From Kiloniella majae (GTDB taxonomy: Bacteria; Pseudomonadota; Alphaproteobacteria; Kiloniellales; Kiloniellaceae): 64,000 nt of DNA. Positions 37,156 through 56,348 of the stretch are shown piece after piece. Position 1 is the first letter of the stretch. The number at the start of each line of letters is the position of its first letter. The notes beneath the pieces were generated by a model. The model did no database searches and was not told the DNA's origin. It saw only the letters and a program-made list of their open reading frames with translations. The position numbers were made by a program, and so were the translations under genes. Location: NCBI RefSeq assembly GCF_002118315.1, contig NZ_MTSZ01000001.1, positions 124,001 to 188,000 on the forward strand, written 5' to 3'.

Positions 37156-38145
37156 TTATTTAATGGCATCGACCACTGCATGGGTCCAAGCGCCTTCGGG
37201 TTTTTTCGTGATCACAGGATCAGAACCACCACCTAGAAGAGTGTTTACTGTACGCTCGTAATCCGCAGGATCTAGCTTACCATCAGAACCTGATGTCAAC
37301 TTGTTGATTTCACCCATCATACGAACCTGATGTTTTTCTGTCTGCGCACCTGTTGCATCATTTTCCAGCACAATTTCCGCAGCTTCTTCCGGGTGGTTAC
37401 GTGCATAGTCCCACCCCTTCATGCTAGCGGAAACAAAACGTGCCATCTTATCAACAAAAGCAGCATCCTTTAGATTGTCTTCGAGAACATAAAGACCATC
37501 TTCCAATGTTGCGACGCCCTGTTCTTCATATTTGAAAACAACAAGCTCGTCAGCGGGAATACCCGCATCAATAATCTGCCAATACTCATTGTAGGTCATT
37601 GTGGAAACACAATCAGCCTGCTTTTGAAGAATTGGATCAACGTTGAAACCCTGCTTTAAAACGGAAACACCTTCAGCCCCACCACTGGTCGGTATTTGCA
37701 GTTTCGACATCCAGCTCAGGAAAGGATACTCGTTTCCAAAGAACCAGACGCCCAGAGTTTTTCCTTTGAAATCGTCCGGGGATGTTATGCCTGTTTCTTT
37801 ACGACAGGTCAGCATCATCCCCGATGTTTTAAAGGGCTGTGCAATGTTTACCAGCGCAACACCTTTTTCACGGGAAGCCAAAGCAGATGGCATCCAGTCA
37901 ACAATAACGTCTGCTCCACCGCCAGCAATAACCTGTGGTGGGGCAATGTCCGGACCACCGGGTTTAATGTTCACATCAAGATCGGCATCGTCATAGAAGC
38001 CTTTTTCTTTCGCAACGTAATAGCCCGCGAACTGTGCCTGCGTTACCCACTTTAGCTGCAGATTTACGGTATCAGCAGCCTGTGCAGCACCGCCAGCAAC
38101 TCCAAAAGCTACAGCAGCAACAGCACCCAATAACAGTTTCTTCAT
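37156..38145 (-). CDS. THI5/NMT1-type ABC transporter substrate-binding protein, candidate pyrimidine binder
   Basis: 329 residues from MKKLLLGAVAAVAFG, with a signal peptide ending GAAQAA. The ATG at 38145 has GGGAGAAAATA immediately upstream; the longer frame to 38283 overlaps the permease gene and is rejected. The NMT1/THI5-like fold is shown by LQLKWVTQAQFAGYYVAKEKGFYDDADL, GADVIVDWMPSAL and TLGVWFFGNEYPF. Relatives bind thiamine-precursor pyrimidines or riboflavin. Here the operon encodes dihydropyrimidinase and carbamoyl-beta-alanine hydrolase, so uracil, thymine or dihydropyrimidines are the inferred ligands. Last gene of the operon. Confidence 0.88.
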   Translation of the reverse strand: MKKLLLGAVAAVAFGVAGGAAQAADTVNLQLKWVTQAQFAGYYVAKEKGFYDDADLDVNIKPGGPDIAPPQVIAGGGADVIVDWMPSALASREKGVALVNIAQPFKTSGMMLTCRKETGITSPDDFKGKTLGVWFFGNEYPFLSWMSKLQIPTSGGAEGVSVLKQGFNVDPILQKQADCVSTMTYNEYWQIIDAGIPADELVVFKYEEQGVATLEDGLYVLEDNLKDAAFVDKMARFVSASMKGWDYARNHPEEAAEIVLENDATGAQTEKHQVRMMGEINKLTSGSDGKLDPADYERTVNTLLGGGSDPVITKKPEGAWTHAVVDAIK

Positions 38146-38197
38146 TATTTTCTCCCTGTTGTGGTTCCATCTCAGCAAAACAGAATAATCCAACGGA

Positions 38198-39331
38198 TTA
38201 GCGACTGCTTCGAAAGGACGGATGCCAAAAAGTACATGCCCGTTCAATAACGACCATGATTCCATAAAAAGCAGTACCGGCAAGCGCAGCTACTGCAATC
38301 TCAGCCCAGACCATATCGACGTTCATACGGCCTACTTCGGTTGAAATACGAAACCCCATACCAACAATTGGTGTCCCGAAGAACTCGGCAACAATGGCCC
38401 CAATCATGGCAAGGGTAGAATTGATTTTCAAAGCATTGAAAACAAATGGTAATGCCGACGGCAAACGAAGCTTAATCAAACTTTGCCAATAACTCGCTGC
38501 ATAGGTTTTCATCATATCTTTTTCGATAGAGGACGTAATAGACAAGCCAGCTACAGTGTTAACCAGCATCGGGAAGAAAGTCATGATAATGACCACTGCC
38601 GCCTTTGAGTGCCAGTCAAAACCAAACCACATCACCATAATCGGCGCGACCCCGATAATAGGTAAAGCACTGACGAGATTACCGATCGGCAGCAACCCGC
38701 GCTGCAAGAAAGGACTTCGATCAATCAGGATCGCAATAATAAAAGCGCTACCACAGCCGAGAATATAACCGATCAAAACTGCTTTCAAAAAGGTTTGTTG
38801 GAAATCTGCCCACAAAATATCCGTAGAAGCCATAAAGCGCGCGCCGATCATACTCGGCGGAGGCAACAGGACCGTTGGTATTTGTAACCCGCGAACCACA
38901 AGCTCCCAAAGCAACAGCAACCAAACGCCAAACAGCACAGGTACCACAATACTGTAGAAGCGTTTTGCGGTCGGTGTTTTCGTCTTTTTCGCAGACAACT
39001 GATCAACCAACAGCCAAGCCATGAGCCATGAAGATACCACAAGACACCAGAAACCGGACGCTAAGTGCTGATCAGCCACATCTAGGCGGGAAAGAAGCAT
39101 CCATGCCCCGACATGAGGTAATATCACCAAGACCAGATCAGCCTTTAAGCCCTTTAACCGATTAAGAAGCACCGCCACGGAAGCCAGCATGGAAACAATT
39201 GCAAAAGCTGTTAGCCCACTGTCACTCCACAAAGAGACAGCTTCACCATTTAGTTCGCCCAATGGAAAAAACAAAGCCAGAATAGAAAGCACACCACTTA
39301 GGATAGCGAGTGATTGTCGAAAACTAATCAT
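38198..39331 (-). CDS. ABC transporter permease with N-terminal membrane extension
   Basis: 377 residues. The C-terminal ~240 residues are a SsuC/TauC/ThiX-type permease (LPPPSMIGARFMASTDILWADFQQT, coupling loop KTYAASYWQSLIKLRLPSALP). The first ~125 residues add about four hydrophobic segments not usual in this family, where proteins are near 250-280 residues. The extension is followed by a KKTKT linker. It overlaps the preceding permease by 4 bp and so probably forms a heterodimer with it. Confidence 0.88.
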   Translation of the reverse strand: MISFRQSLAILSGVLSILALFFPLGELNGEAVSLWSDSGLTAFAIVSMLASVAVLLNRLKGLKADLVLVILPHVGAWMLLSRLDVADQHLASGFWCLVVSSWLMAWLLVDQLSAKKTKTPTAKRFYSIVVPVLFGVWLLLLWELVVRGLQIPTVLLPPPSMIGARFMASTDILWADFQQTFLKAVLIGYILGCGSAFIIAILIDRSPFLQRGLLPIGNLVSALPIIGVAPIMVMWFGFDWHSKAAVVIIMTFFPMLVNTVAGLSITSSIEKDMMKTYAASYWQSLIKLRLPSALPFVFNALKINSTLAMIGAIVAEFFGTPIVGMGFRISTEVGRMNVDMVWAEIAVAALAGTAFYGIMVVIERACTFWHPSFRSSR

Positions 39332-40257
39332 TGTGCCATCCCCATTTTTTTGAGGACAACTTTATTGGAAATACCAACCAGAGAAACCAATCCAGCCGCA
39401 AGTAAGGCAGCAGCAATTAAAGCCGACCAGATCTGAATGGTTTGTCCGTAATAAGAACCAGCCAACAGTCTGGCCCCTAAACCTTCGACAGCACCAGTAG
39501 GGAGTTCACCAACGATTGCCCCGACAAGGCTGGTCGCTATGGCAACCTTCATTCCGGTAAAGAGGTAAGGTACGGAAGATGGCCAGCGTAATTTCCAGAA
39601 AAGGTCCCAGTTGGACGCATTGTAGGTCCGCATAAGATCAAGGTGAATAACTTCTGGAGAACGCAGCCCCTTTACAATCCCCACAGTAATGGGAAAGAAG
39701 CTGAGATACGTGGCAATAAAGGCTTTGGGTAAAATACCCTGAATACCGATTGCATTCAGAACAACAATAATCATTGGCGCAATTGCCAGAATAGGAATTG
39801 TTTGGGACGAAATAATCCACGGCATCAAGCTTTTATCCAGGCTCCGATTATGAACAATGCCTACCGCGAGCAAAATCCCCAGAACCGTCCCGATGATAAA
39901 ACCAAGTAACGTTGTAGAGAGTGTAATCCAGCTGTGATAAACAAGCGATCTTTTTGACGTTACTTTCTTCAGGATTGTTGTCTTGTATAGTTCAACCACA
40001 ACCTGATCCGGTGCTGGCAAGACAGGGCGCTCTTGTGACAGCGTATCGCTAATCAACTGGCTTGTTGTCCATTCAACACTATTGCGTTTGTAAATTTCTT
40101 TCTGAAAAGGGCTGTTCAGCATAACAGCAGAGAAATACCAAATGGCAATAATTGCCATCACAATCACCAAGACAGGGCCCGTTTTCCCAGACATCAACCG
40201 AGACCACAGCCCCTGCCCCCCGGTAACACCGGGAGAAATCAGAGCATCAGTCGTCAT
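39328..40257 (-). CDS. ABC transporter permease (SsuC/TauC/ThiX type)
   Basis: 309 residues. TM1 is about 28-48, followed by a ~60-residue periplasmic segment. The permease core has the coupling loop RTYNASNWDLFWKLRWPSSVPYLFTG and VGAIVGELPTGAVEGLGARLL. It overlaps the ATPase gene by 11 bp and the next permease by 4 bp, implying translational coupling. The two permeases differ in sequence, as expected of a heterodimeric channel. Confidence 0.9.
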   Translation of the reverse strand: MTTDALISPGVTGGQGLWSRLMSGKTGPVLVIVMAIIAIWYFSAVMLNSPFQKEIYKRNSVEWTTSQLISDTLSQERPVLPAPDQVVVELYKTTILKKVTSKRSLVYHSWITLSTTLLGFIIGTVLGILLAVGIVHNRSLDKSLMPWIISSQTIPILAIAPMIIVVLNAIGIQGILPKAFIATYLSFFPITVGIVKGLRSPEVIHLDLMRTYNASNWDLFWKLRWPSSVPYLFTGMKVAIATSLVGAIVGELPTGAVEGLGARLLAGSYYGQTIQIWSALIAAALLAAGLVSLVGISNKVVLKKMGMAQ

Positions 40258-41170
40258 AGCTATGCCCTTCCTTTAAGCCTTCGCGTACCCGATGGGCAAT
40301 TTCCAGAAATTCCGGTGCCTCCCGAATATCCAATCCGCGATCACGTGGAAGATTGCAATCTATCACATCGTAAATACGCCCCGGCCTTGGGGACATGACC
40401 ACAATTTTAGAAGACAGAAAAACAGCTTCCGGGATCGAGTGGGTCACAAACAGAACTGTTTTGTCGGTTTTATCCCACAAACGCAAAAGCTGTTCGTTCA
40501 AATGATCACGGACAATTTCATCCAAAGCTCCAAAAGGCTCATCCATTAGCAGTAGCTCTGGATCAAAAGAAAGTGCACGCGCAATAGAAGCCCGCTGTTG
40601 CATACCACCAGAAAGCTGCCAGGGATATTTTTTATCAAAGCCCGAAAGATTTACCAGTTCCATATTACGCGCAATTCGATCCTGTCGTTCGGACTTGGGA
40701 ATTCCCATAACTTCCAGTGGTAAGGATATATTACCTGCAATCGTCCGCCACGGATAAAGCGCGGGAGCCTGAAAAACATATCCGTAGTCCCGATTAAGCC
40801 GAGCCTGTTGTGCGCTAACGCCATTGACCCAGAGTTCGCCGCCAGTAGGTTGTTCCAGATCAGCAACCGCCCGGAGCAAAGTCGTTTTACCGCATCCCGA
40901 AGGTCCGATAAAAGAAACAAAATCCCCCTGATTAATAGTGAGATCAATATCAGACAACGCATGAACTGGCCCGTCATTCGTCTCAAAAGTAAGCGACAGT
41001 CCTTTGATATTAATAACAGAATTCGCACTCTGTTCCTGACTGCTAGTCCCTGTCTCTGGACTCATCCCGTTTGTATCCATTTTTTCTGCCTGTCCGGTCG
41101 TTCCCTGTTTGGTACCCTCGGCGACGCCAGTTGCATTCCCATTTGTATTTATGGCTGTAGATTGCAGCAT
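40247..41170 (-). CDS. ABC transporter ATPase (SsuB/TauB/ThiZ type)
   Basis: 307 residues: Walker A GPSGCGKTT, signature LSGGMQQRASIARAL, Walker B LLLMDEPFGALD and H-loop FVTHS. About 50 polar, Thr/Gly/Asn/Gln-rich residues precede the domain. This extension is probably translated, because GGGAG lies seven nucleotides before the ATG at 41170, but it has no recognisable function. It lies 147 bp after dihydropyrimidinase on the same strand; a 10-bp hairpin (41229-41257) sits in that gap. Confidence 0.9.
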   Translation of the reverse strand: MLQSTAINTNGNATGVAEGTKQGTTGQAEKMDTNGMSPETGTSSQEQSANSVINIKGLSLTFETNDGPVHALSDIDLTINQGDFVSFIGPSGCGKTTLLRAVADLEQPTGGELWVNGVSAQQARLNRDYGYVFQAPALYPWRTIAGNISLPLEVMGIPKSERQDRIARNMELVNLSGFDKKYPWQLSGGMQQRASIARALSFDPELLLMDEPFGALDEIVRDHLNEQLLRLWDKTDKTVLFVTHSIPEAVFLSSKIVVMSPRPGRIYDVIDCNLPRDRGLDIREAPEFLEIAHRVREGLKEGHSYDD

Positions 41171-41317: not shown

Positions 41318-42772
41318 CTATACACCAGCCGGCATATTTTCAGCTTTGCGTTCCACTTTACGCGGTGCAGTGATTTCTTTCCACTTGGAAAGTGCTTTAT
41401 TTACGGCCGGGTATGAATCTCTCGCAACAAATTCACCATGACCGGGTTCAGCCTTAACAGTGCTTTCTTCAACAGACACCTTACCCCGCGTCAGTGTAAA
41501 ACGTGGTAATCCGGTGACTTCCTTGCCTTCAAAGACATTGTATTCGATAACAGATTGCTGGTTCTTTGCCGTAATAGTTTTAGAGCGATTTGGATCCCAA
41601 ACCACCAAATCCGCATCGGCACCAACCATGACAGCGCCCTTCTTAGGGTACATGTTCAGGATTTTAGCTATGTTTGTTGACGTCACAGCCACAAACTCAT
41701 TCATAGTCAGACGCCCCGTTTGCACACCGTGGGTCCATAGCATCGGCATACGATCTTCCAAACCACCCGTACCATTTGGAATTTTGGTAAAATCGCCAAT
41801 TCCAAAACGCTTTTGTTCCGCTGTAAAGGCACAGTGATCTGTTGCCACAACCTGAAGTGATCCGGATTGCAGACCAGCCCAGAGGCTATCCTGGTGCTGT
41901 TTATTGCGGAAAGGCGGAGACATTACTCGTTGTGCAGAATGGTCCCAATCCGGGTGCGCATATTCGCTATCGTCCAGTGTCAGGTGCTGAATAAGCGGCT
42001 CACCAAAAACACGCATTCCTTTTTGACGTGCACGGCGAATGGCTTCATGGGCCTGCTCACAGGATGTATGCACAATGTAAAGCGGTACACCAGCCATATC
42101 GGCAATCATAATCGCACGGTTAGCGGCTTCGCCTTCGACCTCTGGCGGTCTGGAATAGGAATGCGCTTCAGGACCGTTATTTCCTTCGGCTAGTAATTTT
42201 TGTTGCAAGGTCGCAACCACATCGCCGTTTTCGGCATGAACCAGAGGCATCGCCCCTAGGGCAGAGCAACGCTGGAAAGATGCAAACATCTCATCATCAT
42301 CAACCATCAACGCGCCTTTATAGGCCATGAAATGCTTGAAGGTATTAATCCCGCGACCAACGACTTCTTCCATTTCATTAAAGACTTTTTCGTCCCACCA
42401 GGTTACCGCCATGTGATAGGAATAGTCGGCACAGGCAGAGCCAGATTTTTGCTGCCAGATAGCCAGTGCTTCCATGAGGGACTGCCCTGGTGCAGGAAGG
42501 CAGAAATCAACCACCATGGTTGTCCCCCCTGCGAGACCAGCCCGCGTACCACTTTCGAAATTATCGGCAGAGTGCGTTCCCATGAACGGCATTTCAAGAT
42601 GCACATGGGGATCAATACCACCCGGCATAATATAACAGCCAGTAGCATCCAAAGTTTCATTGCCGGAAAGATTTTGCCCAATTTCGGTGATTTTACCGCC
42701 TTCGACCAAAACATCTGCTTCGTAAGATAAATCTGCGGTAACAACAGTACCGCCTTTGATAACTGTACTCAT
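41318..42772 (-). CDS. hydA: dihydropyrimidinase
   Basis: 484 residues, cyclic amidohydrolase with a binuclear zinc site: His56 and His58 (DPHVH), carboxylated Lys152 (FMAYKG), His in LVHAENGD, His in YIVHTSCEQ and Asp in VATDHCAF. It opens 5,6-dihydrouracil or dihydrothymine to N-carbamoyl-beta-alanine or N-carbamoyl-beta-aminoisobutyrate, the second step of the reductive pathway. It follows the amidohydrolase gene by 15 bp. PreT-PreA, the first step, is encoded 6 kb upstream. Confidence 0.95.
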   Translation of the reverse strand: MSTVIKGGTVVTADLSYEADVLVEGGKITEIGQNLSGNETLDATGCYIMPGGIDPHVHLEMPFMGTHSADNFESGTRAGLAGGTTMVVDFCLPAPGQSLMEALAIWQQKSGSACADYSYHMAVTWWDEKVFNEMEEVVGRGINTFKHFMAYKGALMVDDDEMFASFQRCSALGAMPLVHAENGDVVATLQQKLLAEGNNGPEAHSYSRPPEVEGEAANRAIMIADMAGVPLYIVHTSCEQAHEAIRRARQKGMRVFGEPLIQHLTLDDSEYAHPDWDHSAQRVMSPPFRNKQHQDSLWAGLQSGSLQVVATDHCAFTAEQKRFGIGDFTKIPNGTGGLEDRMPMLWTHGVQTGRLTMNEFVAVTSTNIAKILNMYPKKGAVMVGADADLVVWDPNRSKTITAKNQQSVIEYNVFEGKEVTGLPRFTLTRGKVSVEESTVKAEPGHGEFVARDSYPAVNKALSKWKEITAPRKVERKAENMPAGV

Positions 42773-42787
42773 AATTTTACCCTTTCT

Positions 42788-44038
42788 TTATTCTACGATT
42801 TCAGCGGTTTCAACAACGGCATGAAACAGAACATCAGCCCCCGCGCCAGCCCATTCCGGTGAAATTTCTTCGTCTTCGTTATGACTTAGTCCATCAACGC
42901 AAGGACACATCACCATTGCAGTTGGCGCAACTCGATTAACCCAACAGGCATCGTGTCCCGCACCGGAGACAATATCACGATGGGAATAACCAAGGCGAAC
43001 AGCTGCATTACGCACAGCAGAAACACACCCTTCGTCAAAGGTAACGGGATCAAAGGCACCAGCCTGTTCAATTTCCATAGTCAGACCAATTTCTTCGACA
43101 ATCTCGCGCCCTTCAAAACGCAAAGCCTGTTCCATAGCCGTGATCACATCTTTGTTCGGATGACGGAAATCGATGGTAAAGACAGTCTTTCCCGGGATGA
43201 TATTACGAGAATTAGGATAGACATCCATATGACCAATCGCCCCCACCGCATGCGGGGCATAACGCAGCGCAATATCATTTACCAGTTCGGTGATACGTGC
43301 AGCCCCGAGACCAGCATTTACCCGTTTAGGCATCGGTGTTGAACCTGTATGGCTTTCCTTACCTGTTAGCGTCACCTGTAACCAGTTCAACCCCTGACCA
43401 TGGGTCACAACGCCAATATCAACATTCTCGTCTTCGAGGATGGGTCCTTGTTCGATATGGAGTTCAAACATCGCGTGAAGTTTTCGTTCTCCAACAGGTT
43501 CGTCGCCGACAAAACCGATCCGCTTGAGTTCATCGCCAAATTTAAGACCTTCGGCGTCTTCACGGTCATAGGCCCAGTCTTGCGTATGAACACCGGCAAA
43601 TACACCTGATGCCAACATCGCAGGGGCAAAACGAGTGCCCTCTTCATTGGTCCAGTTTACGACCTCAATCGCGCGTTTGGTCTTAATCCCCATATCATTC
43701 AAACTGCGAACGATTTCCAGCCCCGCCAAGACGCCGAGGACACCGTCATACTTTCCGCCTGTAGGCTGCGTATCAAGGTGCGAGCCGACCATAACAGGCA
43801 AAAGACTTGGGTCTGTTCCTTCGTGGCGGGCAAACATATTCCCCATACTATCAATACCAACAGTCATGCCGGCGTCTTCACACCACCGTTTAAAGAGATG
43901 ACGCCCTTCGGCATCTTCATCGGTCAAGGTTTGGCGATTATTTCCTCCGCGAACCCCCGGACCAATTTTTGCCATTTCCATTAATGAATCCCATAACCGA
44001 GGGGAATTAATATGCATATTATCGGCTGGTTTGCTCAT
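42788..44038 (-). CDS. N-carbamoyl-beta-alanine amidohydrolase (M20 hydantoinase/carbamoylase family)
   Basis: 416 residues, M20/M28-type zinc amidohydrolase: GSHLDTQPTGGKYDGVLG with His/Asp ligands, NWTNEEGTRF, ELHIEQGPILE, a dimerisation lid with GKESHTGSTPM and AGHDACWV, then SHNEDEE. Allantoate amidohydrolase and L-carbamoylases share the fold; adjacency to dihydropyrimidinase favours carbamoyl-beta-alanine. Products are beta-alanine (or beta-aminoisobutyrate), CO2 and ammonia. Only 92 bp separate it from the mmsA stop and most of that is a terminator, leaving little room for a promoter. Confidence 0.92.
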   Translation of the reverse strand: MSKPADNMHINSPRLWDSLMEMAKIGPGVRGGNNRQTLTDEDAEGRHLFKRWCEDAGMTVGIDSMGNMFARHEGTDPSLLPVMVGSHLDTQPTGGKYDGVLGVLAGLEIVRSLNDMGIKTKRAIEVVNWTNEEGTRFAPAMLASGVFAGVHTQDWAYDREDAEGLKFGDELKRIGFVGDEPVGERKLHAMFELHIEQGPILEDENVDIGVVTHGQGLNWLQVTLTGKESHTGSTPMPKRVNAGLGAARITELVNDIALRYAPHAVGAIGHMDVYPNSRNIIPGKTVFTIDFRHPNKDVITAMEQALRFEGREIVEEIGLTMEIEQAGAFDPVTFDEGCVSAVRNAAVRLGYSHRDIVSGAGHDACWVNRVAPTAMVMCPCVDGLSHNEDEEISPEWAGAGADVLFHAVVETAEIVE

Positions 44039-44130: not shown

Positions 44131-45627
44131 CTAATCCATGTTCGGGAAGGTAAAGACTGCCCCTTCCTTAATACCAGCAGGCCAACGTGTTGTGACCGTC
44201 TTTAGCCTTGTATAGAAACGCACACCTTCCGGACCATAGATGGAATGATCACCAAAGAGAGATCGTTTCCATCCGCCAAAGGAATGATAAGCTACTGGCA
44301 CGGGGATCGGCACATTCACACCAACCATCCCGACCTCAATATCATCTGCGAATGACCGCGCAGCATCACCATCACGTGTGAATATTGCGGTTCCGTTTCC
44401 GTACTCGTGCTTGTTGATCAGATCAACAGCATGATCGTAATCCTTGGCGCGCAAAACAGACAGAACAGGACCAAAGATTTCTTCTTTGTAGATCGTCATA
44501 TCATCGGTTACGCGGTCAAAAAGCGTTCCCCCGACAAAATAACCATCCTCATAGCCCTGCAATTTGAAGTTACGACCATCAACAACCAGATCAGCCCCCT
44601 GGGCAACGCCCTGATCAATATATCCCAGTACCTTTTCCTGGTGTGCCTTGGTAATAACCGGTCCCATATCCGCATCCACATCAGTGCTCGGCCCAATCCG
44701 CATGCTTTCGACACGTGGCTTGAGGATTTCAACCAGCTTATCCGCTGTCTCCTCACCAACAGGCACCGCAACAGAGATCGCCATACAACGTTCACCAGCA
44801 GAACCGTACCCTGCCCCCATCAAGGCATCAGCCGCTTTGTCCATATCAGCGTCCGGCATGATAATCATGTGGTTTTTCGCACCACCCAGCGCTTGGACAC
44901 GCTTGCCTTTTGCTGTTCCACGGGAATAGACATATTCCGCAATCGGCGTTGACCCTACAAAAGAAATAGCCTTCACATCGGGATGATCCAAAAGGGTATC
45001 GACAGCTTCTTTATCGCCGTGAACCACATTCAAGACACCATCCGGGAAGCCCGCTTTTTTAAAGAGATCCCAAATCAGCATCGGGGCTGATGGATCACGC
45101 TCGGATGGTTTGAGAACAAAGGTGTTACCCGCAGCAATAGCGATTGGGTACATCCAAAGCGGCACCATCGCGGGGAAGTTAAAAGGTGTAATGCCTGCAA
45201 CAACGCCAAGAGGTTGGCGATCTGAATAGCTATCGACTTGAGGCCCAACGTTTCTGCTGAACTCACCCTTTAAAAGCTGAGGAATACCACAAGCAAACTC
45301 TACCACTTCGATACCACGAGCTACTTCCCCCAAGGCATCGTCATGTGTCTTACCATGTTCGCGACTGATCTCACGCGCGATATCATCTGCATGAGCATCC
45401 AGTAATTCCTTGAAACGGAACATATAGCGTGCGCGTTTAAGCGGTGGCGTTGCCCCCCATTCTTTTGCAACAGCTTTGGCAGAAGCAACGGCTTCGTTTA
45501 CTTCATCAACTGTCGAAAGAGGTAACTCTGCAATCTGTTCACCCGTCGCAGGGTTAAAAATCTTAGAGCTTCGCGTACTTGAAGAAAGGCGCCGTTCGCC
45601 TGCGATTGCATTACTGATCCGTTCCAT
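44131..45627 (-). CDS. mmsA: CoA-acylating (methyl)malonate-semialdehyde dehydrogenase
   Basis: 498 residues from [15 protein letters not shown]; a GTG-rich GGTGGTGAA sequence precedes this ATG, and one at 45639 is also possible. Aldehyde-dehydrogenase fold with [27 protein letters not shown] and the catalytic Cys in [13 protein letters not shown]; MmsA-type residues replace the usual Glu general base. It converts malonate semialdehyde (from uracil) to acetyl-CoA and methylmalonate semialdehyde (from thymine or valine) to propionyl-CoA. This completes reductive pyrimidine breakdown after a transaminase that is not in the window. First gene of its transcript, opposite the RutR pair. Confidence 0.94.
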
Positions 45628-45779
45628 TTCACCACCCATAAAGTCACTTAAGCGTTTGTTACGCTTATAAATTTGAACCTGTTATTCTCTACGCGCATCC
45701 AATGCACACGTCAGAAAACAACCTATGACAAGAGGCCGCAGGACAACGGGGGTGAAGGAAAAGATAATGTTTTACGTCA

Positions 45780-45797: not shown

Positions 45798-46081
45798 CGC
45801 GTCATAAAAAGGTCAGCAGCTTAAGCGACAGACATAAATCGTTTTAAAGATTATTGTTCCGATTTTCCTGTTACTTAAATTTGAAGATAGCTTTGTAAAA
45901 AGCGCCTTCAACATACAGTCTTTGATCTCAGTTGTTGCCACCTATTTTATGCATGTACCTATACTCCCTGTACTACCGGTGTCTTCTGTCCCCGGCCTTG
46001 TTTTTATTTTGGCAGTTGTTTAACCTGCCTTTATAATTATTTACTTTATGGTCAATATTTAAGTGTATTTTTCTTAAATTC

Positions 46082-46097
46082 CTGACCATTTGGTCAA
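46082..46097. promoter_or_regulatory. RutR-type operator 1
   Basis: CTGACCATTTGGTCAA matches the E. coli RutR consensus TTGACCA-NN-TGGTCAA at all but the first base. A further half-site TGGTCAA lies at 46049-46055. Confidence 0.8.
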
Positions 46098-46114
46098 ATT
46101 AACGCTACTAAATC

Positions 46115-46130
46115 CTGACCATTTGGTCAA
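46115..46130. promoter_or_regulatory. RutR-type operator 2
   Basis: A second, identical CTGACCATTTGGTCAA, 33 bp (about three helical turns) from operator 1 and 51 bp before the first regulator's ATG. The phasing suggests cooperative binding and autoregulation. Confidence 0.8.
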
Positions 46131-46180
46131 CACTAAAAACACATGTCGGATCCCGTTTGGGCAACACGGCAGGAAACAAA

Positions 46181-46822
46181 ATGACAAAAGTGGAAAGAGC
46201 AATAAAATCAAACTCTAAGGCGAGTATTCGGCAGGAAAAAGAAAAGATAATTCTCAAGGCTGCAGAAAGTGTTTTTGCCGAGTATGGTTTTCGGGGAGCA
46301 ACGACAAGCATGATTGCTGAGCGGGCAAAAATGCCCAAAGCCAATCTGCACTATTATTTCCCAACAAAACAGGCCCTCTATCGTCAAGTTGTTGATAACA
46401 TTTTCAACATCTGGCTTCAGGCAGCGGATTCATTTGACGACTGCGACGATCCTGTCGAAGCCCTGACCAGATACATAGAGAAGAAGATGGATATATCCCG
46501 GGAAAACCCCATGGGGTCAAAAGTCTGGGCCAATGAAATTATCCGCCGCGCGCCCGTTATTCAGGACTATCTTGAAACCACCTTGAAAGATTGGACGGAA
46601 TCAAGAGTATCAGTCATTCAACGCTGGATAGATCAGGGTCGTATCAACCCGGTCGATCCCCACTATCTGCTCTACATGATCTGGTCAACGACACAACACT
46701 ATGCCGATTTCAATCATCAGATCGAAACCCTGAACGGGGGCACTCCTTTGAGTGATACGCAATACCAAACGGCAAAAGACAATGCTATAGAGATCATCCT
46801 CAAGGGTATCGGAGCCCGATAG
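46181..46822 (+). CDS. TetR-family regulator, divergent RutR paralogue
   Basis: 213 residues from MTKVERAIKS; AGGAAA precedes this ATG by 4 nt, so the longer frame from 46157 is rejected. The N-terminal helix-turn-helix is GATTSMIAERAKMPKANLHYYFPTKQALY. The C-terminal domain has the RutR-type segment HYLLYMIWSTTQHYADF near the end. It shares this architecture with the next gene but differs across the ligand domain. It follows two RutR operators and is 43 bp upstream of the second regulator. It may sense a different pyrimidine-pathway intermediate such as beta-alanine or a dihydropyrimidine; this is inference. Confidence 0.9.
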   Translation: MTKVERAIKSNSKASIRQEKEKIILKAAESVFAEYGFRGATTSMIAERAKMPKANLHYYFPTKQALYRQVVDNIFNIWLQAADSFDDCDDPVEALTRYIEKKMDISRENPMGSKVWANEIIRRAPVIQDYLETTLKDWTESRVSVIQRWIDQGRINPVDPHYLLYMIWSTTQHYADFNHQIETLNGGTPLSDTQYQTAKDNAIEIILKGIGAR

Positions 46823-46871
46823 GTTAAAATTTGTCCGATAATTTGATATTTGAGAGAAGAAGTAAGTGGTT

Positions 46872-47507
46872 ATGAACCCAAGAGCCGGTCAGACAAAAAA
46901 GCGTACACGTATACAGGCTAAGAATGAAGCCAAGATCCTGGAAGCTGCGCTGGATATCTTTGCGACCTTTGGCTTCCGAGGGACAACCATCGACCAGATT
47001 GCCCAGAAAGCAGAGATGTCGAAACCAAACCTTCTCTACTATTTCCGCCGTAAAGAAGACATCTACATTTCTGTTTTAGAACGAACACTGGATGAATGGC
47101 TCACCCCGCTAACAGAACTTGATCCAGATGGCGATCCCATTAAGGAAATTGGCAAATACACAAGCCTGAAGCTACAGATGTCACAGAATGATCCAACGGC
47201 ATCACGGCTTTTTGCCAACGAAATCCTTCACGGCGCGCCAATGATTGAACACGTTCTCAAAGGATCACTAAAGGATCTGGTCGACGAAAAAGCTGCTGTC
47301 ATTCACCATTGGGTCAAATCCGGAAAACTTACCAAGGTTGATCCCTACCATCTTATTTTCATGATCTGGGCAACAACACAGCACTATGCTGATTTTAAAA
47401 TACAGATGCGGGCGATATTGGGCGACGAAGTTGATCAAGCAGATTATTTCGAGAAGGCTGGCAATACAATCAGCACCGTCTTCTTCGAGGGCATCAAACC
47501 AAGATAA
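46872..47507 (+). CDS. rutR: RutR-like pyrimidine-responsive TetR regulator
   Basis: 211 residues (ATG 46872; a GTG at 46866 is also possible). It follows E. coli RutR closely: FATFGFRGTTIDQIAQKAEMSKPNLLYYF, ASRLFANEILHGAPM, KAAVIHHWVKSGKL, HLIFMIWATTQHYADF and a C-terminal EGIKPR. RutR binds uracil or thymine and releases operators TTGACCA-NN-TGGTCAA, two of which precede this gene pair. It is co-transcribed with the divergent paralogue. Targets probably include mmsA, preTA and hydA; only the autoregulatory sites are visible as consensus matches. Confidence 0.93.
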   Translation: MNPRAGQTKKRTRIQAKNEAKILEAALDIFATFGFRGTTIDQIAQKAEMSKPNLLYYFRRKEDIYISVLERTLDEWLTPLTELDPDGDPIKEIGKYTSLKLQMSQNDPTASRLFANEILHGAPMIEHVLKGSLKDLVDEKAAVIHHWVKSGKLTKVDPYHLIFMIWATTQHYADFKIQMRAILGDEVDQADYFEKAGNTISTVFFEGIKPR

Positions 47508-48608: not shown

Positions 48609-49916
48609 CTATTCTGCTGCTTTCACCGCAGAGGGGTTGTTTGGATGTGTGGTCCAATTTGCGTAATCAGGATCAATCGGCTTATTTGTCCGCGGATCAC
48701 TGCCTTCTGTCATTTGCTCCATGGTAATACAATCTTCCACAGGACATACACTAACGCAGAGGTTACACCCAACGCATTCGTCATCGATCACTTCGAATTT
48801 GCGTACACCATCAACCATTGAAGTGATCGCCTGGTGGGACGTATCTTCACAGGCAATATGGCAACGACCACACTTGATACATGCATCCTGATCAATTTTA
48901 GCTTTGGCGATATAGTTCAGGTTCAAATACTGCCAGTCCGTCACATTCGGTACAGCACGACCAATAAAATCATCCAGCTTGTCGTATCCCTGCTCATCCA
49001 TCCAATTTGACAGGCCAGCATTTAGTTCTTCAATGATTTTAAAACCGTAGGTCATAGCAGCTGTACAAACCTGAACAGAACCAGATCCCAGTGCCATAAA
49101 CTCGGCTGCATCTTTCCACGTAGTAACACCACCTATACCAGAGATTGGCAGACCATGCGTTTCAGGATCACGTGCAATTTCGGAAACCATACTTAAAGCG
49201 ATAGGCTTCACAGCAGGCCCACAATAACCACCGTGCGTCCCTTTGCCATCAACAGTTGGATTTGGCGCCATTGCGTCAAGATCAATAGATACGATGGAGT
49301 TAATCGTATTGATAAGGGACACAGCATCAGCACCGCCGCGATGCGCTGCTCGTGCCGATTGTCTGATATCTGATATATTTGGTGTCAACTTAACGATAAC
49401 CGGAAGATCTGAATGAGTTTTACACCAACGTGTTACCATCTCGACATATTCAGGAACCTGACCGACTGCAGCCCCCATTCCACGCTCTGACATTCCATGC
49501 GGACAGCCAAAATTTAACTCAACGCCATCACATCCTGTTTCTTCAACACGCTTTAGGATGTCAATCCAGCTCTGCTCTTCACAGGGGACCATCAAAGAGA
49601 CAATCAATGCTCTGTCCGGCCAGTTCTTTTTTACCCGGGTAATCTCTTCCAGATTGGTTTCCAATGAACGATCTGTAATCAACTCAATATTATTTAAGCC
49701 AAGTAGACGACGATCCGGACCGTGGATAGCCCCATACCGAGGGCCATTCACATTCACAACGGGATCACCTTCTCCCAATGTCTTCCAAACCACGCCGCCC
49801 CAGCCAGCTTCGAAGGCTCGCACGACGTTGTATTCTTTATCTGTTGGCGGCGCAGATGCTAACCAGTAGGGGTTCGGAGATTTAATTCCGAGGAAATTGC
49901 AACTAATATCAGCCAT
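48609..49916 (-). CDS. preA: NAD-dependent dihydropyrimidine dehydrogenase, subunit PreA
   Basis: 435 residues. FMN-binding TIM barrel of the dihydroorotate-dehydrogenase type (about 1-310): NPYWLASAPPTDK, a substrate loop with NFGCPHGMSERGMGAAVGQ and ISGIGGVTTWKDAAEFM at the phosphate end. The C-terminal ferredoxin domain has two 4Fe-4S motifs, CIKCGRCHIAC and CVGCNLCVSVC. It reduces uracil and thymine to 5,6-dihydropyrimidines with electrons passed from PreT. It follows preT by 97 bp, a gap that contains a 9-bp hairpin (49952-49984). Confidence 0.95.
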   Translation of the reverse strand: MADISCNFLGIKSPNPYWLASAPPTDKEYNVVRAFEAGWGGVVWKTLGEGDPVVNVNGPRYGAIHGPDRRLLGLNNIELITDRSLETNLEEITRVKKNWPDRALIVSLMVPCEEQSWIDILKRVEETGCDGVELNFGCPHGMSERGMGAAVGQVPEYVEMVTRWCKTHSDLPVIVKLTPNISDIRQSARAAHRGGADAVSLINTINSIVSIDLDAMAPNPTVDGKGTHGGYCGPAVKPIALSMVSEIARDPETHGLPISGIGGVTTWKDAAEFMALGSGSVQVCTAAMTYGFKIIEELNAGLSNWMDEQGYDKLDDFIGRAVPNVTDWQYLNLNYIAKAKIDQDACIKCGRCHIACEDTSHQAITSMVDGVRKFEVIDDECVGCNLCVSVCPVEDCITMEQMTEGSDPRTNKPIDPDYANWTTHPNNPSAVKAAE

Positions 49917-50013: not shown

Positions 50014-51369
50014 TTAAGCGCTCAGCACATCATTGATTGCTTCAGCAGCAACCTTTCCGTCTTCTACTGCTGCAACGGTGAGATCTTCACCACCTGCAAT
50101 ACAATCCCCTCCGGCCCAGACATCACCCAGGCTGGTACGGCGATTTTCATCAACCCTTATACGACCACTATCCAGTTCAATTGCTTCGGCAGATCCGTTC
50201 AACGGCGCGGCAACAAAGTTCTGACCAATTGCCTTGAACACCATATCGGCCTCCAACGTCAGTGTTTCGCCAGTACCGGACAAAGAACCATTTTTACTTT
50301 CCGTATACTCACATTCAATGGCAACAACCTTGCCATCCTCACCGATCAACTTGTTCGGTTTGATCCAGTGGCGGATCGTAACACCGTTGGTTTGTGCCAG
50401 TTCCTGTTCGTATTCACTGGCATTCATCTGTTCCTTGCCACGACGATAGAGAATGGTCACTTCCTCGGCGCCTAGCAGCTTGGTTTGAACAGCCGCATCA
50501 ACTGCGGTCATACCACCACCTATAACAACCACTTTTCGACCAACGGAAATTTTCGACAGATCCGTTGCCTGACGTAGATCGGCAATGTAGGAAACAGCAT
50601 CGACGACGCCATCAAGGTCTTCACCTTCGGCACGTAATGCATTGATACCCGCAAGACCCATTCCCAAAAAGACAGCATCAAAATTTTGTCTGAGATCAGC
50701 AAGAGAAATTGTCTCGCCCAGACGATTACCGTTTTCAATCGTTATCCCGCCAATAGAGAGCAGGAATTCAACTTCCTTTTGCGCGAAGTTATCAACAGAT
50801 TTATAGGCGGCAATACCGTATTCGTTCAGGCCTCCAGCCTTTTCACGGGCATCATAGACAACCACGTCATGTCCATGCATTGCCAGACGATGTGCACAAG
50901 AAAGTCCCGCCGGACCAGCACCAACGACAGCAACACGCTTGCCGGTAAGTGCCGCTCGCTTGAAGATCTTATCTCCGTCTTCTAGTAGGTGATCAGTCGC
51001 AAAACGTTGGAGCAGACCGATTTTAACAGGCTTGCCCTCTGCTTCTTCACGAACACACGCTTGTTCACATAACGTTTCTGTTGGACAAACGCGAGCACAC
51101 ATACCGCCAAGGATATTCTGTTCAAAAATCGTCTTCGCAGATCCTTTTGGATTGTCGGCTGCAATCTGACGAATGAACATAGGAATATCGATAGATGTCG
51201 GACATGCAACAGTACACGGTGCATCGTAACAAAAATAGCAACGATCTGCTTCGACAAAGGCTTCGTGCTTACTAAGTGGCGGATGGATATCACTAAAATT
51301 CTTGCTGTAGTCTTCATCTTCAAGACGGCTAGACTGGATATCGGGCCGACTACCGGCGTTGGTACTCAT
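50014..51369 (-). CDS. preT: dihydropyrimidine dehydrogenase, NAD(P)/FAD subunit PreT
   Basis: 451 residues, GltD-like. The N-terminal 4Fe-4S domain has the cysteine-rich CYFCYDAPCTVACPTSID and GGMCARVCPTETLCEQAC segments. An FAD-binding GAGPAGLSCAHRLA motif lies near 150 and an NAD(P)-binding GGGMTAVDAA motif near 285; AGGDCIAGGEDL closes the FAD site. It oxidises NADH and feeds PreA. First gene of preT-preA. The 321 bp upstream, shared with a divergent binding-protein gene, hold a 16-bp palindrome and no other feature I can support. Confidence 0.95.
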   Translation of the reverse strand: MSTNAGSRPDIQSSRLEDEDYSKNFSDIHPPLSKHEAFVEADRCYFCYDAPCTVACPTSIDIPMFIRQIAADNPKGSAKTIFEQNILGGMCARVCPTETLCEQACVREEAEGKPVKIGLLQRFATDHLLEDGDKIFKRAALTGKRVAVVGAGPAGLSCAHRLAMHGHDVVVYDAREKAGGLNEYGIAAYKSVDNFAQKEVEFLLSIGGITIENGNRLGETISLADLRQNFDAVFLGMGLAGINALRAEGEDLDGVVDAVSYIADLRQATDLSKISVGRKVVVIGGGMTAVDAAVQTKLLGAEEVTILYRRGKEQMNASEYEQELAQTNGVTIRHWIKPNKLIGEDGKVVAIECEYTESKNGSLSGTGETLTLEADMVFKAIGQNFVAAPLNGSAEAIELDSGRIRVDENRRTSLGDVWAGGDCIAGGEDLTVAAVEDGKVAAEAINDVLSA

Positions 51370-51493
51370 CCATAATCTCCCTGACGTATATGTAATTATT
51401 ATACTTTTGACGTAAGATCCGCCCTCTTGTGGGGTGGTATCTATCCCTGTTTGGTATAATTCTAAGGTGAAATAACCGCGCTAGTCAATTTTT

Positions 51494-51509
51494 TTTATCA
51501 TTTGATAAA
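51494..51509. promoter_or_regulatory. TTTATCA-NN-TGATAAA palindrome upstream of preT
   Basis: A perfect 7-2-7 inverted repeat, the same geometry as the RutR operator and matching it at five of seven positions per arm. It lies about 125-140 bp upstream of the preT start in AT-rich DNA. Confidence 0.45.
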
Positions 51510-51690
51510 TTTTTTATTATTTCACGATTACAAAATGAGCAATTTAGAACCGGGAAGCATATAGTTTATAGTATTTTATTGCGGCATTTTATTCCGTTAT
51601 TTTATGGTTAACATTTGTCCGCTACAATTTCATTGCTTGTTGGTCCATTGCCAGTTGACAATATAAGGGGGCAATAAAAGGCTATGATAA

Positions 51691-53045: not shown

Positions 53046-53319
53046 GAAACATTACGAGTTCAATTTTGTCATAATATTCGCGAAATTGGCCGATACCAGT
53101 AATACTAAAACTGTCCCGACAAGTGATTACCCAATATCACGCCCGAATTTCAGGGGTGCAGTAAGACATTGGTTGAAGGTTCAAAAAAGAAGTCTATTCT
53201 GTCTTTGAATGAATTCTCGTCTGAGGTTAGGATTACCGATCAAAATAAAGGATCGTTGATCCAAATCTTTCGGGATATTCAGGGAAATCGCAAAAGAGTA
53301 GCTTCCGGCAACCGTCCAG

Positions 53320-53343
53320 GACAGTCACATCAAGACAGTCACA
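53320..53343. repeat. direct repeat GACAGTCACA x2 in dgcN leader
   Basis: GACAGTCACA at 53320-53329 and 53334-53343 (14-bp period), 57-80 bp before the dgcN ATG. A palindrome GGATC-GTT-GATCC lies at 53250-53262. No coding sequence is supported in 52999-53399 although a frame is open from 53169. Confidence 0.45.
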
Positions 53344-53399
53344 AAGGGCACAAGAACAAAACCTTGCATCAAAAATGGTGCATTGAGGGAGTAACAAGT

Positions 53400-54398
53400 A
53401 TGAGCATTAAAACACCTTATCTTCTTTTCCTCGGCAATGCCGCTGATCCCCTTGCCGCCAAGGTCGCCCAGGGCATTAAAGACTGGCGTCCGGAAAACTG
53501 TGTCGGACAGCTTCGTCTTGATGGCTGTAACGCTGATCTGGGGCTAACCGACATGACACCTGCCGAAGCAATTGCCAATGGCGCCAAAAGCATGGTTGTC
53601 GGGGTTGCCAACCGGGGCGGTGTTATTGATGCAACGTGGGTAAAGGCCCTGATCGAAGCCATGGAAGCCGGCCTTGATCTGGCCGCAGGTCTTCACAACA
53701 AACTTGCAGACGTTCCTGAACTAGCAGAAGCCGCAAAACGCCTTGGCCGTGAAATTCACGATGTGCGCCATCCATCCCGCAGCTATCCTGTTGCCGCAGG
53801 GACAAAACGTCCGGGCAAACGCCTGCTCGCCGTGGGAACCGATTGTTCTTGTGGTAAAATGTATTCCACCCTCGCCATTGAAAAAGAACTGCGCGCCCGT
53901 GGTGTTAAGGCTGATTTCCGTGCCACAGGTCAAACCGGGATCCTGATCACGGGTGATGGTGTTTCCGTTGATGCCGTGGCTGCTGATTTTATTTCCGGCT
54001 CTGTAGAAACCCACTCACCCGCCAATGATGACGATCACTGGGATATTATCGAAGGTCAGGGATCTTTGTTCCATGCCTCCTTTGCTGGCGTGACACTCGG
54101 TCTGATCCATGGGTCACAGCCCGATGCATTGGTCCTTTGCCACGAACCCACACGGACACACATGCGCGGACTTCCTGACTTTGGACTACCATCCATAAAA
54201 GAATGCATGGATGCAAATCTGGCCGCAGCAAAACTGACAAACAAAAATGCAAAGTTTGTCGGTATCGCCATCAACACATCAAAGTTGAGCGATGAAGAAG
54301 CCAAAGCCTATCTGGCAAAAACAGAAGAAGAGTTTGGCCTGCCGACTGTTGATCCTGTTCGTACAGGAGTAGCCGCAATCGTGGATAACCTGTCATGA
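53400..54398 (+). CDS. dgcN: DUF1611-family D-glutamate N-acetyltransferase-type protein DgcN
   Basis: 332 residues from MSIKTPYLLFLGN; GGAG lies eight nucleotides upstream. The family has an N-terminal Rossmann-like domain and a C-terminal P-loop-like domain, with VGTDCSCGKMYSTLAI as the nucleotide or CoA-binding loop and ATGQTGILITGDGV following. DUF1611 members paired with an enolase-superfamily epimerase have been described as DgcN, which N-acetylates D-glutamate in marine Proteobacteria. The 4-bp overlap with dgcA and the D-amino-acid enzymes downstream support that role. The frame is open back to 53169 but that extension lacks a ribosome-binding site and family similarity. Confidence 0.85.
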   Translation: MSIKTPYLLFLGNAADPLAAKVAQGIKDWRPENCVGQLRLDGCNADLGLTDMTPAEAIANGAKSMVVGVANRGGVIDATWVKALIEAMEAGLDLAAGLHNKLADVPELAEAAKRLGREIHDVRHPSRSYPVAAGTKRPGKRLLAVGTDCSCGKMYSTLAIEKELRARGVKADFRATGQTGILITGDGVSVDAVAADFISGSVETHSPANDDDHWDIIEGQGSLFHASFAGVTLGLIHGSQPDALVLCHEPTRTHMRGLPDFGLPSIKECMDANLAAAKLTNKNAKFVGIAINTSKLSDEEAKAYLAKTEEEFGLPTVDPVRTGVAAIVDNLS

Positions 54399-55375
54399 GC
54401 CGCAAGATAACTATTTCTTCTACACCTTGGCCAATCCGCGGGTCTTTTACCATTTCCCGCGGGTCCAAGACCGAAGCTGTCGTTCTCAACGTTTACATTG
54501 AAGAAGACGGCATAAAGGCACAGGGCGAATGCGTTCCCTATCCCAGATATGGTGAGTCTGTGGAATCTGTGACGGCACAGATCAATGAAATCCTGCCAGC
54601 CCTTGAAGGCGGCATGACACGCACAGAGCTACAAGCCGCCATGCCCGCAGGTGCCGGACGTTTTGCCGTTGATGCAGCCCTTTGGGATCTGGAAGCCAAG
54701 AAGGCTGGCAAACGCGCGTGGGAAATCGCTGGTATTCCTATGGAACCAGCGACCACCGTTTATACTCTATCCCTGTCCGATCCGGAAACAATGGAACAGG
54801 ACGCCCGCGACAATCAGGACAAACCCCTTCTAAAGCTCAAACTGGGCGGCGAAGGTGATCTTGCCCGTGTTGCCGCTGTGCGCAAAGGCCATCCAACAGC
54901 CCGTATCGTCGTTGATGCCAACGAAGCCTGGACCAAAGAGGTGTACAACGCAATTGTACCTGAACTGGTCAAGCTGGGCGTTGAAATGATCGAACAGCCC
55001 TTTCCCGCTGGTGATGATGACCTGCTCAAAGAACTGGATCGTCCAATCACGATCTGTGCCGATGAGTCCTGTCACGATCGGGCTTCCCTGCCCAAGCTTG
55101 TTGGCAAGTATGACATGATAAACATCAAGCTGGATAAAACAGGTGGCCTGACCGAAGCCCTCGCCATGAAACAGGAAGCGGAAAAGCTCGGCTTTGAAAT
55201 CATGACGGGCTGTATGCTTGGGTCATCCCTTGCCATGGCCCCGGCGATGCTTATTGCCCAGGGTAGCAAGGTTGTTGATCTGGACGCGCCGTTGTTGCTG
55301 GCAGAAGATTGTGAACCCGGTCTGGTTTTCACTGGTGTTGAAATTGCCCCACCTGAAAAAGCGCTTTGGGGTTAA
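54395..55375 (+). CDS. dgcA: enolase-superfamily epimerase/racemase DgcA
   Basis: 326 residues, muconate-lactonising/dipeptide-epimerase subgroup. LKLKLGG carries the KxK catalytic lysine. Metal ligands are Asp in VVDANEAW, Glu in MIEQPFPAGD and Asp in CADESC, and the second catalytic lysine is in INIKLDKTGG. The start overlaps dgcN by 4 bp (ATGA). Known relatives are L-Ala-D/L-Glu epimerases and DgcA, which racemises N-acetyl-D-glutamate. Context favours DgcA; peptidoglycan dipeptide epimerisation is the alternative. Confidence 0.87.
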   Translation: MSRKITISSTPWPIRGSFTISRGSKTEAVVLNVYIEEDGIKAQGECVPYPRYGESVESVTAQINEILPALEGGMTRTELQAAMPAGAGRFAVDAALWDLEAKKAGKRAWEIAGIPMEPATTVYTLSLSDPETMEQDARDNQDKPLLKLKLGGEGDLARVAAVRKGHPTARIVVDANEAWTKEVYNAIVPELVKLGVEMIEQPFPAGDDDLLKELDRPITICADESCHDRASLPKLVGKYDMINIKLDKTGGLTEALAMKQEAEKLGFEIMTGCMLGSSLAMAPAMLIAQGSKVVDLDAPLLLAEDCEPGLVFTGVEIAPPEKALWG

Positions 55376-55407
55376 GCCCCTGTTGGGTCATAAGGAATTT
55401 TAAGAAT

Positions 55408-56256
55408 ATGAGCAGAACAGTTTATGTAAACGGGTCTTTCCTCCCCGAAGAAGATGCCAAGGTTTCCGTTTTTGATCGCGGATTTCTATTTGCAGATGGC
55501 GTTTATGAAGTTTCAACCGTCTTGGAAGGGCGTTTGATCGACAACGAAGCGCATCTTGTCCGCCTTCAGCGATCATTGGATGAGCTACAAATGACCAGCC
55601 CGGTTTCCATGGATGAAATCGTGACCATTCAAAACAAGCTGATCAAACAAAACGGCCTGAAAGAAGGCGGTTTGTATTTGCAAATCACCCGTGGCGCCGC
55701 AGACCGTGAATTTGGCTTCCCGAAAGACGCAACACCGTCACTGGTGATGTTCACACAGGAAAAGAACCTGTTGAACAGCCCCTCTGCTGAACGCGGCCTT
55801 GCCGTGATCTCTGTCGAAGACATTCGCTGGCAACGTCGGGACATCAAAACCGTTGGTCTCTTGGCCCCTGCCCTTGCCAAACAGGCCGCCGTGGTTGCAG
55901 GTGCGGACGATGCGTGGATGTACGAAGATGGTTTTGTAACCGAAGGCAGTTCAAACAACGCCTATATCATCAGCAAGGAAGGCAAGATCATTACCCGTCA
56001 TTTGGGCAATGAAATCCTGCACGGCATTACCCGTCGTGCCGTGCTCTCCCTTGCCAACGAAGCCGATATGGAAGTGGAAGAGCGCCCCTTCACACTGGAT
56101 GAAGTGCGCAATGCCGCCGAGGCCTTTGTAACTTCGGCTACCACCTTTGTGACAGCCGTTATTTCCCTTGACGGTGAGAAAATTGGGGATGGCAAGCCGG
56201 GTGAATTAACCAAGCGTTTGCGTCAACTCTATATTGAACAAGCTCTCGCAAGTTAA
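55408..56256 (+). CDS. dat: D-amino-acid (D-alanine) transaminase
   Basis: 282 residues, fold-type IV PLP aminotransferase. VSVFDRGFLFADGVYEV is the class signature. Lys in RDIKTVGLL is the PLP lysine, EGSSNNAYII binds the cofactor phosphate, and GITRRAVLSL and TSATTFVTAVI close the site. The stretches agree with Bacillus D-alanine transaminase more than with BCAT. It transfers amino groups between D-amino acids and 2-oxoacids. It lies 32 bp after dgcA, so is probably co-transcribed. The ATG at 55408 has AAGGA upstream; the longer frame from 55366 overlaps dgcA and is rejected. Confidence 0.92.
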   Translation: MSRTVYVNGSFLPEEDAKVSVFDRGFLFADGVYEVSTVLEGRLIDNEAHLVRLQRSLDELQMTSPVSMDEIVTIQNKLIKQNGLKEGGLYLQITRGAADREFGFPKDATPSLVMFTQEKNLLNSPSAERGLAVISVEDIRWQRRDIKTVGLLAPALAKQAAVVAGADDAWMYEDGFVTEGSSNNAYIISKEGKIITRHLGNEILHGITRRAVLSLANEADMEVEERPFTLDEVRNAAEAFVTSATTFVTAVISLDGEKIGDGKPGELTKRLRQLYIEQALAS

Positions 56257-56290
56257 GCCTCAGGTTTAAGGAAAAACTCAATAAATGTAA

Positions 56291-56327
56291 AATAGGCTGT
56301 CCATCCCTAATTGGCAGCCTATTCTTT
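56291..56327 (+). terminator. hairpin between dat and alr
   Basis: AATAGGCTG (56291-56299) pairs with CAGCCTATT (56315-56323) and is followed by CTTTC. It is a moderate terminator that would partly separate alr from dgcN-dgcA-dat. Confidence 0.55.
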
Positions 56328-56348
56328 CATCAAGCAGGACCGCCATAG

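Follow-up and report, generated by a model that had tools for sequence, protein, structure and literature searches.

Tandem RutR-family regulators and a predicted double operator in a reductive pyrimidine cluster of Kiloniella majae

The gene pair and its surroundings

Our analysis concerned a 64 000-nucleotide stretch (the window) of the genome of the marine bacterium Kiloniella majae, in which two regulator genes, T1 (46181–46822, plus strand, 213 aa) and T2 (46872–47507, plus strand, 211 aa), are separated by a gap of 49 bp. Profile searches found TetR_N and TetR_C_3/YcdC-like domains in both proteins, with a PF00440 match in T1 and PF08362 scores of 177 bits for T1 and 174 bits for T2 against a gathering cut-off of 25, and these two genes were the only PF08362 matches in the whole genome. 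T1 and T2 are 36 % identical to one another, and the top match of each among solved structures was E. coli RutR (E-values of 4e-45 and 4e-60, respectively), which bears out the two adjacent RutR-family regulators described by the initial annotation. The closest named relative of T1 was from Kiloniella spongiae (L108, 99 % identity).

The pyrimidine setting that had been proposed for the pair was recovered in the neighbouring genes, and, judged by gene content, the surroundings are a reductive pyrimidine pathway (Pyd) cluster. The opposite gene run is led by a divergent CoA-acylating methylmalonate-semialdehyde dehydrogenase (MMSDH; 44131–45639, minus strand; TIGR01722, 722 bits, cut-off 448.5), and also holds an M20-family amidohydrolase (42788–44038, minus strand; NF006769, 692 bits; TIGR01879, 396 bits), which the cluster suggests to be an N-carbamoyl-beta-alanine amidohydrolase (ureidopropionase), and a dihydropyrimidinase (41318–42772, minus strand; TIGR02033, 595 bits, cut-off 393). 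An NMT1-type ABC transporter (37156–41170, minus strand) has an ATPase (PF00005) and a binding protein (PF09084), between which the open reading frame list places two permease-like frames; its substrate is probably a pyrimidine. On the other flank of T1-T2 lie PreA of dihydropyrimidine dehydrogenase (48609–49916, minus strand; NF006183, 739 bits, cut-off 335), a PreT-like subunit of the same enzyme (50014–51369, minus strand; PF14691 and PF07992), which was named by its neighbourhood and had no NCBIfam PreT model above cut-off, and an EamA transporter gene on the minus strand. No rutABCDEFG operon lies beside T1-T2, and Rfam detected no RNA elements in the region. Past the Pyd cluster, positions 53169–57470 of the window hold what we take to be a D-amino-acid/D-glutamate gene set (DgcN/DgcA-like, D-amino-acid transaminase-like and alanine racemase-like).

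Two identical palindromes, CTGACCATTTGGTCAA, lie upstream of T1 at 46082–46097 and 46115–46130, confirming the two sites phased by 33 bp, and are predicted to be a distal and a proximal operator. The distal operator overlaps a putative −35 element (CTGACC) and the proximal one lies near the probable transcription start of T1-T2, the placement of the −35 and −10 elements being our reading of the aligned sequences. Within the window, TTGACCANNTGGTCAA had nine matches at up to three mismatches, compared to a mean of 3.73 and a maximum of 8 in shuffled sequences (0 of 100 reaching nine). The shorter core at the same tolerance gave 28 window matches against 26.5 expected, which is not unusual, and only the two near-perfect sites therefore stand out. 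The half-site noted at 46049 is present as TGGTCAA (46049–46055); however, it reads as part of a degenerate third full site (TTACTTTATGGTCA, 46041–46055, three mismatches to the core) rather than as a bare half-site. Both operator cores, as well as this TGGTCAA, were kept in all eight aligned Kiloniella rows. In K. laminariae the third site is TTACCTGGTGGTCA, with two mismatches, and its distance varies, whereas the other two sites stay 32–33 bp apart.

Between the Pyd genes and T1 there is also an inverted repeat, GGCAG-N9-CTGCC (TTGGCAGTTGTTTAACCTGCCTT, 46009–46031), identical in 8/8 aligned Kiloniella rows. Among the loci compared its 20-mer core was confined to Kiloniella, and three other loci fitted a loose pattern with a different spacer; the repeat perhaps serves another regulator or belongs to a promoter. 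A consensus promoter scan placed TTGGCA-17-TATAAT upstream, at 46009, with a −10 element that is poorly kept in the genus, and the scan as a whole gave no excess (3 sites, compared to 3.8 in shuffles). For the divergent genes, a search for a sigma-54 promoter returned a weak GG-N10-GC match only.

Two old clades within the RutR family

Phylogenetic inference was based upon two unrooted trees, one of 98 regulators and one of 99 that included gamma- and betaproteobacterial members, and in both a single branch splits the family with near-complete support (100/99 and 100/100, respectively). On one side, clade A (41 rows) unites E. coli RutR and its rut-linked relatives with T2 and many Pyd-linked alphaproteobacterial genes. 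This agrees with the earlier description of T2 as close to E. coli RutR, with which it shares 98 of 198 aligned residues. T2 nevertheless scores below the NCBI cut-offs for a RutR equivalog (TIGR03613, 256 of 368 bits; PRK15008/NF011584, 226.4 of 230 bits), and we have therefore labelled it a RutR-clade regulator and not RutR by NCBI's rule. T1 falls on the opposite side of the branch from E. coli RutR, in clade B (25 rows, support 96/81), the very placement that the initial annotation had given as grounds for refutation, so that its naming as a RutR paralogue was not upheld; its TIGR03613 score is 196.7 bits against the cut-off of 368. As the trees are unrooted, the clade of T1 may still be the closest sister of RutR. 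A homologue tree had been proposed as a means of dating the duplication, and on our trees the split between T1 and T2 is old and wide, and not local. Recent local duplication was rejected as the origin of the pair, because a fully supported branch separates T1 from T2.

Genes from Paraburkholderia and Thalassospira also fall in clade B, as does a Pyd-linked gene (L267) from a Pseudomonas-like genome. This gene adjoins DHP, PreT and PreA, and a sister gene in the same genome shares 73 % identity with a gene of Pseudomonas aeruginosa. It is the likely counterpart of Pseudomonas putida PydR, which a title in the reference list of PMC7332683 (Hidese et al. 2012, J. Biochem. 152:341) presents as a RutR-like protein that represses the gene for dihydropyrimidine dehydrogenase in the reductive pathway. 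T1 has the context of PydR, a RutR-like regulator adjoining reductive pathway genes, and its clade and neighbourhood suggest that it is probably of PydR type; L267 has no TGACCA-type site upstream. The third clade, C (33 rows, 92/78), includes Pyd-linked single regulators. One clade-C regulator (L228, 5995–6645), from a plasmid record of Pseudomonas aeruginosa, has moaA, a nucleobase symporter and gcl/hyi genes as neighbours, a setting that may point to a purine/glyoxylate branch within the family.

In E. coli RutR, according to the portion of PMC10891134 consulted, uracil is contacted by W77, Y97 (by water), W167, Q171 and, from the other subunit, Q179. All five residues are present in both T1 and T2, and they were kept in 41/41 clade-A and 25/25 clade-B rows, except for W167 (24/25 in clade B). 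The initial annotation had described T1 as diverged in the ligand domain, and this holds for the domain overall (52 of 150 residues identical to E. coli RutR, compared to 73 of 150 for T2), but not for these contacts. Their presence makes a loss of pyrimidine binding in T1 unlikely, and we rejected such a loss as far as the known contacts are concerned. Letters typical of clade B, in E. coli numbering and out of 25 rows, included W137 (25), W115 (24), A81 (24), M102 (23), K113 (23), V114 (23), A80 (22), Y164 (21) and F74 (15), with other letters in clade A. These nine positions lie on helices 4 to 8 of an AF2 model of T1 (pLDDT 89; top Foldseek matches the RutR structures 3loc, 4xk4 and 4jyk), where they may line the pocket. 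The ligand-domain letters thus differ by clade, and T1 may have a shifted ligand preference. With the same ring-binding residues set among different neighbours, T1 and T2 probably recognize the same kind of ligand but with a different affinity or preference.

The tandem unit and its operators across relatives

A tandem pair was defined as a clade-B and a clade-A gene on one strand within 1200 bp. This recovered 37 loci, or 30 distinct alphaproteobacterial contigs from several families after the removal of seven duplicates, with hosts including Kiloniella (eight genomes), Stappia, Roseibium, a Cohaesibacteraceae MAG, Rhodobacterales and further MAGs. The T1-type gene precedes the T2-type gene in all 30 contigs, with gaps of −11 to 117 bp, and the genes overlap by 4 bp in K. 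laminariae, L115, Roseibium and Aliiroseovarius. Among non-redundant loci no shorter than 10 kb, every tandem row stands beside Pyd genes (11/11 clade B and 15/15 clade A), and rut genes were found only alongside clade-A genes, in 5 of the 26 without a close partner.

Sites upstream of family members were surveyed in 400 bases before each of 265 genes, reduced to 127 at 80 % identity, with gene starts taken from HMM envelopes; these counts and the per-genome counts below allow for kinship only at that level. Among clade-B genes lacking a close partner, 15 of 25 were preceded by a site with at most one mismatch (for a 26th the upstream DNA was too short), as were 9 of 12 clade-B genes in tandem pairs and, again among genes lacking a close partner, 9 of 32 in clade A and 18 of 40 in clade C. 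A recognizable site was accordingly absent from 10, 3, 23 and 22 genes of these respective classes, and no palindrome of the TGACCA type was detected upstream of the Burkholderia-type genes (L152, L156, L180 and L185) or of L149, L163 and L267. Across 100 permuted palindromes the means were 0.00–0.02 genes for lone B, tandem B and lone A, and 0.00 to 0.08 over all classes, with one permutation reaching eight genes in tandem A. None of the 17 tandem clade-A genes had a site of its own within the 400 bases, which suggests that a tandem T2 probably depends on the promoter of T1.

Among the 30 tandem contigs, 22 carry double sites 32–36 bp apart before T1, one carries a single site (L126) and six have none of the usual sites (L087, L088 and four Aliiroseovarius-type loci); as one contig (L121) is cut off, double sites occur in 22 of 29 readable cases. 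Per genome, a double site was taken as two sites 28–40 bp apart, and named tandem loci without a genome entry stand outside these counts but are part of the per-gene survey. Genomes with a linked pair had 13 double sites and three without any (n=16), and those with a second family member elsewhere, only part of which were typed as clade A, had 8 double, 11 single and 3 none (n=22). Where a T1-type gene was the sole strong member there were 8 single sites, 2 none and no double (n=10), and where a T2-type gene was, 10 single, 11 none and no double (n=21); G646 and G599 on the B side, and G619, G558 and G450 on the A side, contain further PF08362 genes and so are not single-member genomes. Taking linked and unlinked second members together, genomes with sites divided into 21 double and 11 single, compared to 0 and 8 (Fisher's exact test, p = 0.001), a value that ignores kinship; 7 of the 21 are Kiloniella. 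A rule that a double operator means a linked pair is weakened by the unlinked class, in which eight genomes are also double and 11 single.

The single-type genomes provide comparative evidence that each protein may read the palindrome alone. The site lies upstream in 8 of 10 genomes with only the T1 type, which argues against the possibility, raised at the outset, that the first regulator fails to bind these sites, and the ten sites in genomes with only the T2 type support the same argument for T2.

Four close tandem loci of one lineage, the Aliiroseovarius-type pairs (L168, L174, L176 and L186), depart from this motif. The usual sites are gone, and in their place is a long inverted repeat, TGCACGATCGGTCA, nine bases and TGACCGATCGTGCA (L168, 7878–7914), which is a probable altered operator, the motif having become TGACCG-AT-CGTGCA. 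Both recognition helices are changed in parallel: that of T1 is PKSNVVYY compared to the usual PKANLHYY (positions 53 and 56, and also 55, in E. coli numbering), and that of T2 is SKQNIVYY compared to SKPNLLYY, or to SKPNILYY in other Rhodobacterales (positions 53 and 56). In Actibacterium the T1 helix is changed likewise, whereas an unlinked RutR-type protein keeps SKPNLLYY; a diverged form of the altered operator was read by eye upstream, the exact altered pattern not being matched. This one lineage and its one unlinked comparison are most simply explained if T2, when linked, has to recognize whatever sequence T1 recognizes. A second lineage (L087 and L088) pairs a T1 helix of PKSNILYY with SKPNILYY, and upstream of these two loci the known motif was absent and no operator was found.

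A shared-operator model and its reach

To our knowledge, RutR is known as a single regulator. Our search of open-licence literature on RutR, PydR, TetR regulators of pyrimidine pathways and TetR heterodimers returned no such tandem pair in the titles and abstract openings of the matches listed. The sections of the RegPrecise account of Proteobacteria available to us (PMC5343134) list RutR for pyrimidine catabolism with '68 (13)' and note taxon-specific motif substitutions, and contain no mention of tandem RutR-family pairs or doubled operators. E. coli RutR is described, in the part of PMC10891134 seen, as the product of an autoregulated gene divergent from a pyrimidine-degradation operon, binding a palindromic box of about 16 bp and released by uracil. 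T1 and T2 resemble that protein (PDB 3loc, 4jyk, 4xk4 and 6z1b) in belonging to the TetR/YcdC family and in having its uracil contacts, and T2 also lies in its clade. However, both score below the NCBI cut-offs for RutR proper, and whereas rutR of E. coli K-12 adjoins the oxidative rut operon, Kiloniella has two regulators in a reductive Pyd cluster behind a doubled operator. The E. coli rutA-rutR region matches the core only with three mismatches, as shuffled sequences also do, and the motif is therefore not simply that of E. coli.

Taken together, we consider it fairly probable that T1 and T2 share both operators, acting as an autoregulated repressor pair of the reductive pyrimidine pathway that is released by pyrimidines. 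Homology, phylogeny, conserved gene order, site conservation, co-occurrence and the parallel helix change form the basis of this model, in which repression, the promoter position, control of the divergent Pyd genes and the ligands are inferred. The PydR-like T1 and the RutR-like T2 would form a single repressor operon, and both proteins would occupy the same TGACCA-NN-TGGTCA palindromes, which separate T1 from the divergent Pyd genes. With the distal operator over the −35 element of this operon and the proximal one about its start point, the 33-bp spacing would bracket the promoter. Binding of uracil, thymine or dihydrouracil by either protein would then weaken its hold on the DNA and free transcription; both repression and release by pyrimidines follow from what is known of RutR.

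How the pair divides its work can be read in several ways. The proteins may bind the same operators as homodimers, with T1 sensing another ligand of the pathway (dihydrouracil, or thymine as opposed to uracil) and the promoter integrating two signals. The clade-B-typical residues in the ligand-domain helices favour such a partition, as does structure 4xk4, titled as E. coli RutR with dihydrouracil, which indicates that the pocket can take an intermediate. However, both proteins have all five uracil contacts, and genomes with a single type carry the same kind of site, so that we regard the partition as conceivable but somewhat doubtful. It seems unlikely that T1 and T2 need, or prefer, to bind each palindrome as a heterodimer. 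The fixed gene order and the 4-bp overlaps would suit co-translational assembly, the two half-sites of the Aliiroseovarius-type operators differ (TGACCG and TGCACG), and the stretch bearing W167, Q171 and Q179 is the best-kept part between T1 and T2 (16 of 27 identical). Against these stand the symmetry of the Kiloniella operators, the poor conservation of the last 30 residues (5 of 30 identical) and the occurrence of each type alone with the same palindrome (eight T1-type and ten T2-type genomes), by which both can work singly.

It is also possible to view one regulator as redundant, a leftover paralogue heading for loss, and genomes in which one type is the sole strong member (10 T1-type and 21 T2-type) do exist. 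We think this improbable for a pair that is found in the same order on 30 distinct contigs spread over several families, has its key residues intact in both proteins and has changed its helices together in one lineage. Returning to the shared-operator repressor pair, a more general proposal, which we advance only tentatively, is that ancient PydR-like and RutR-like paralogues form a widespread alphaproteobacterial module, a fixed T1-T2 unit behind a shared double operator that acts as a two-input pyrimidine switch through unlike ligands or a mixed dimer; shared use of the operators would have forced the helices to co-evolve, leaving unlinked copies free. Two old RutR-family clades kept in tandem on shared operators would offer a compact natural case for asking how paralogous repressors divide ligands while sharing DNA, and whether operator sharing leads to a joint evolution of the recognition helices. 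The comparison also sets a probable reductive-pathway type of regulator apart from RutR proper, with which it shares one Pfam domain and is easily merged.

A genome-wide scan, as proposed in the initial annotation, returned the exact core, TGACCANNTGGTCA, at just two places in the 4 384 269-base genome, both upstream of T1. Allowing one mismatch gave 16 places, compared to eight for a reversed control pattern, and 13 of the 14 one-mismatch places fell within open frames of at least 155 codons. The remaining place (L316, 1270–1283, TCACCAAATGGTCA) adjoins a LysR-type gene, and on its other side lies what we take to be a methylamine methyltransferase gene. A large regulon of near-perfect sites was thus not found in this genome. 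The one-mismatch pattern exceeded its reversed control in seven of nine Kiloniella genomes (166 compared to 102 in sum), so weak sites may exist. In the four Kiloniella genomes for which exact sites were listed, at least three further exact sites occurred, in two genomes and all inside open frames; both of these genomes match named K. laminariae contigs.

Against the model, some 440 bp separate the distal operator from the start of MMSDH. Upstream of preT-preA-EamA (51370–51690), no RutR-type site was found within three mismatches, which counts against control of the full pathway. In other genomes (L120, L075 and L078), a site lies directly before preT.
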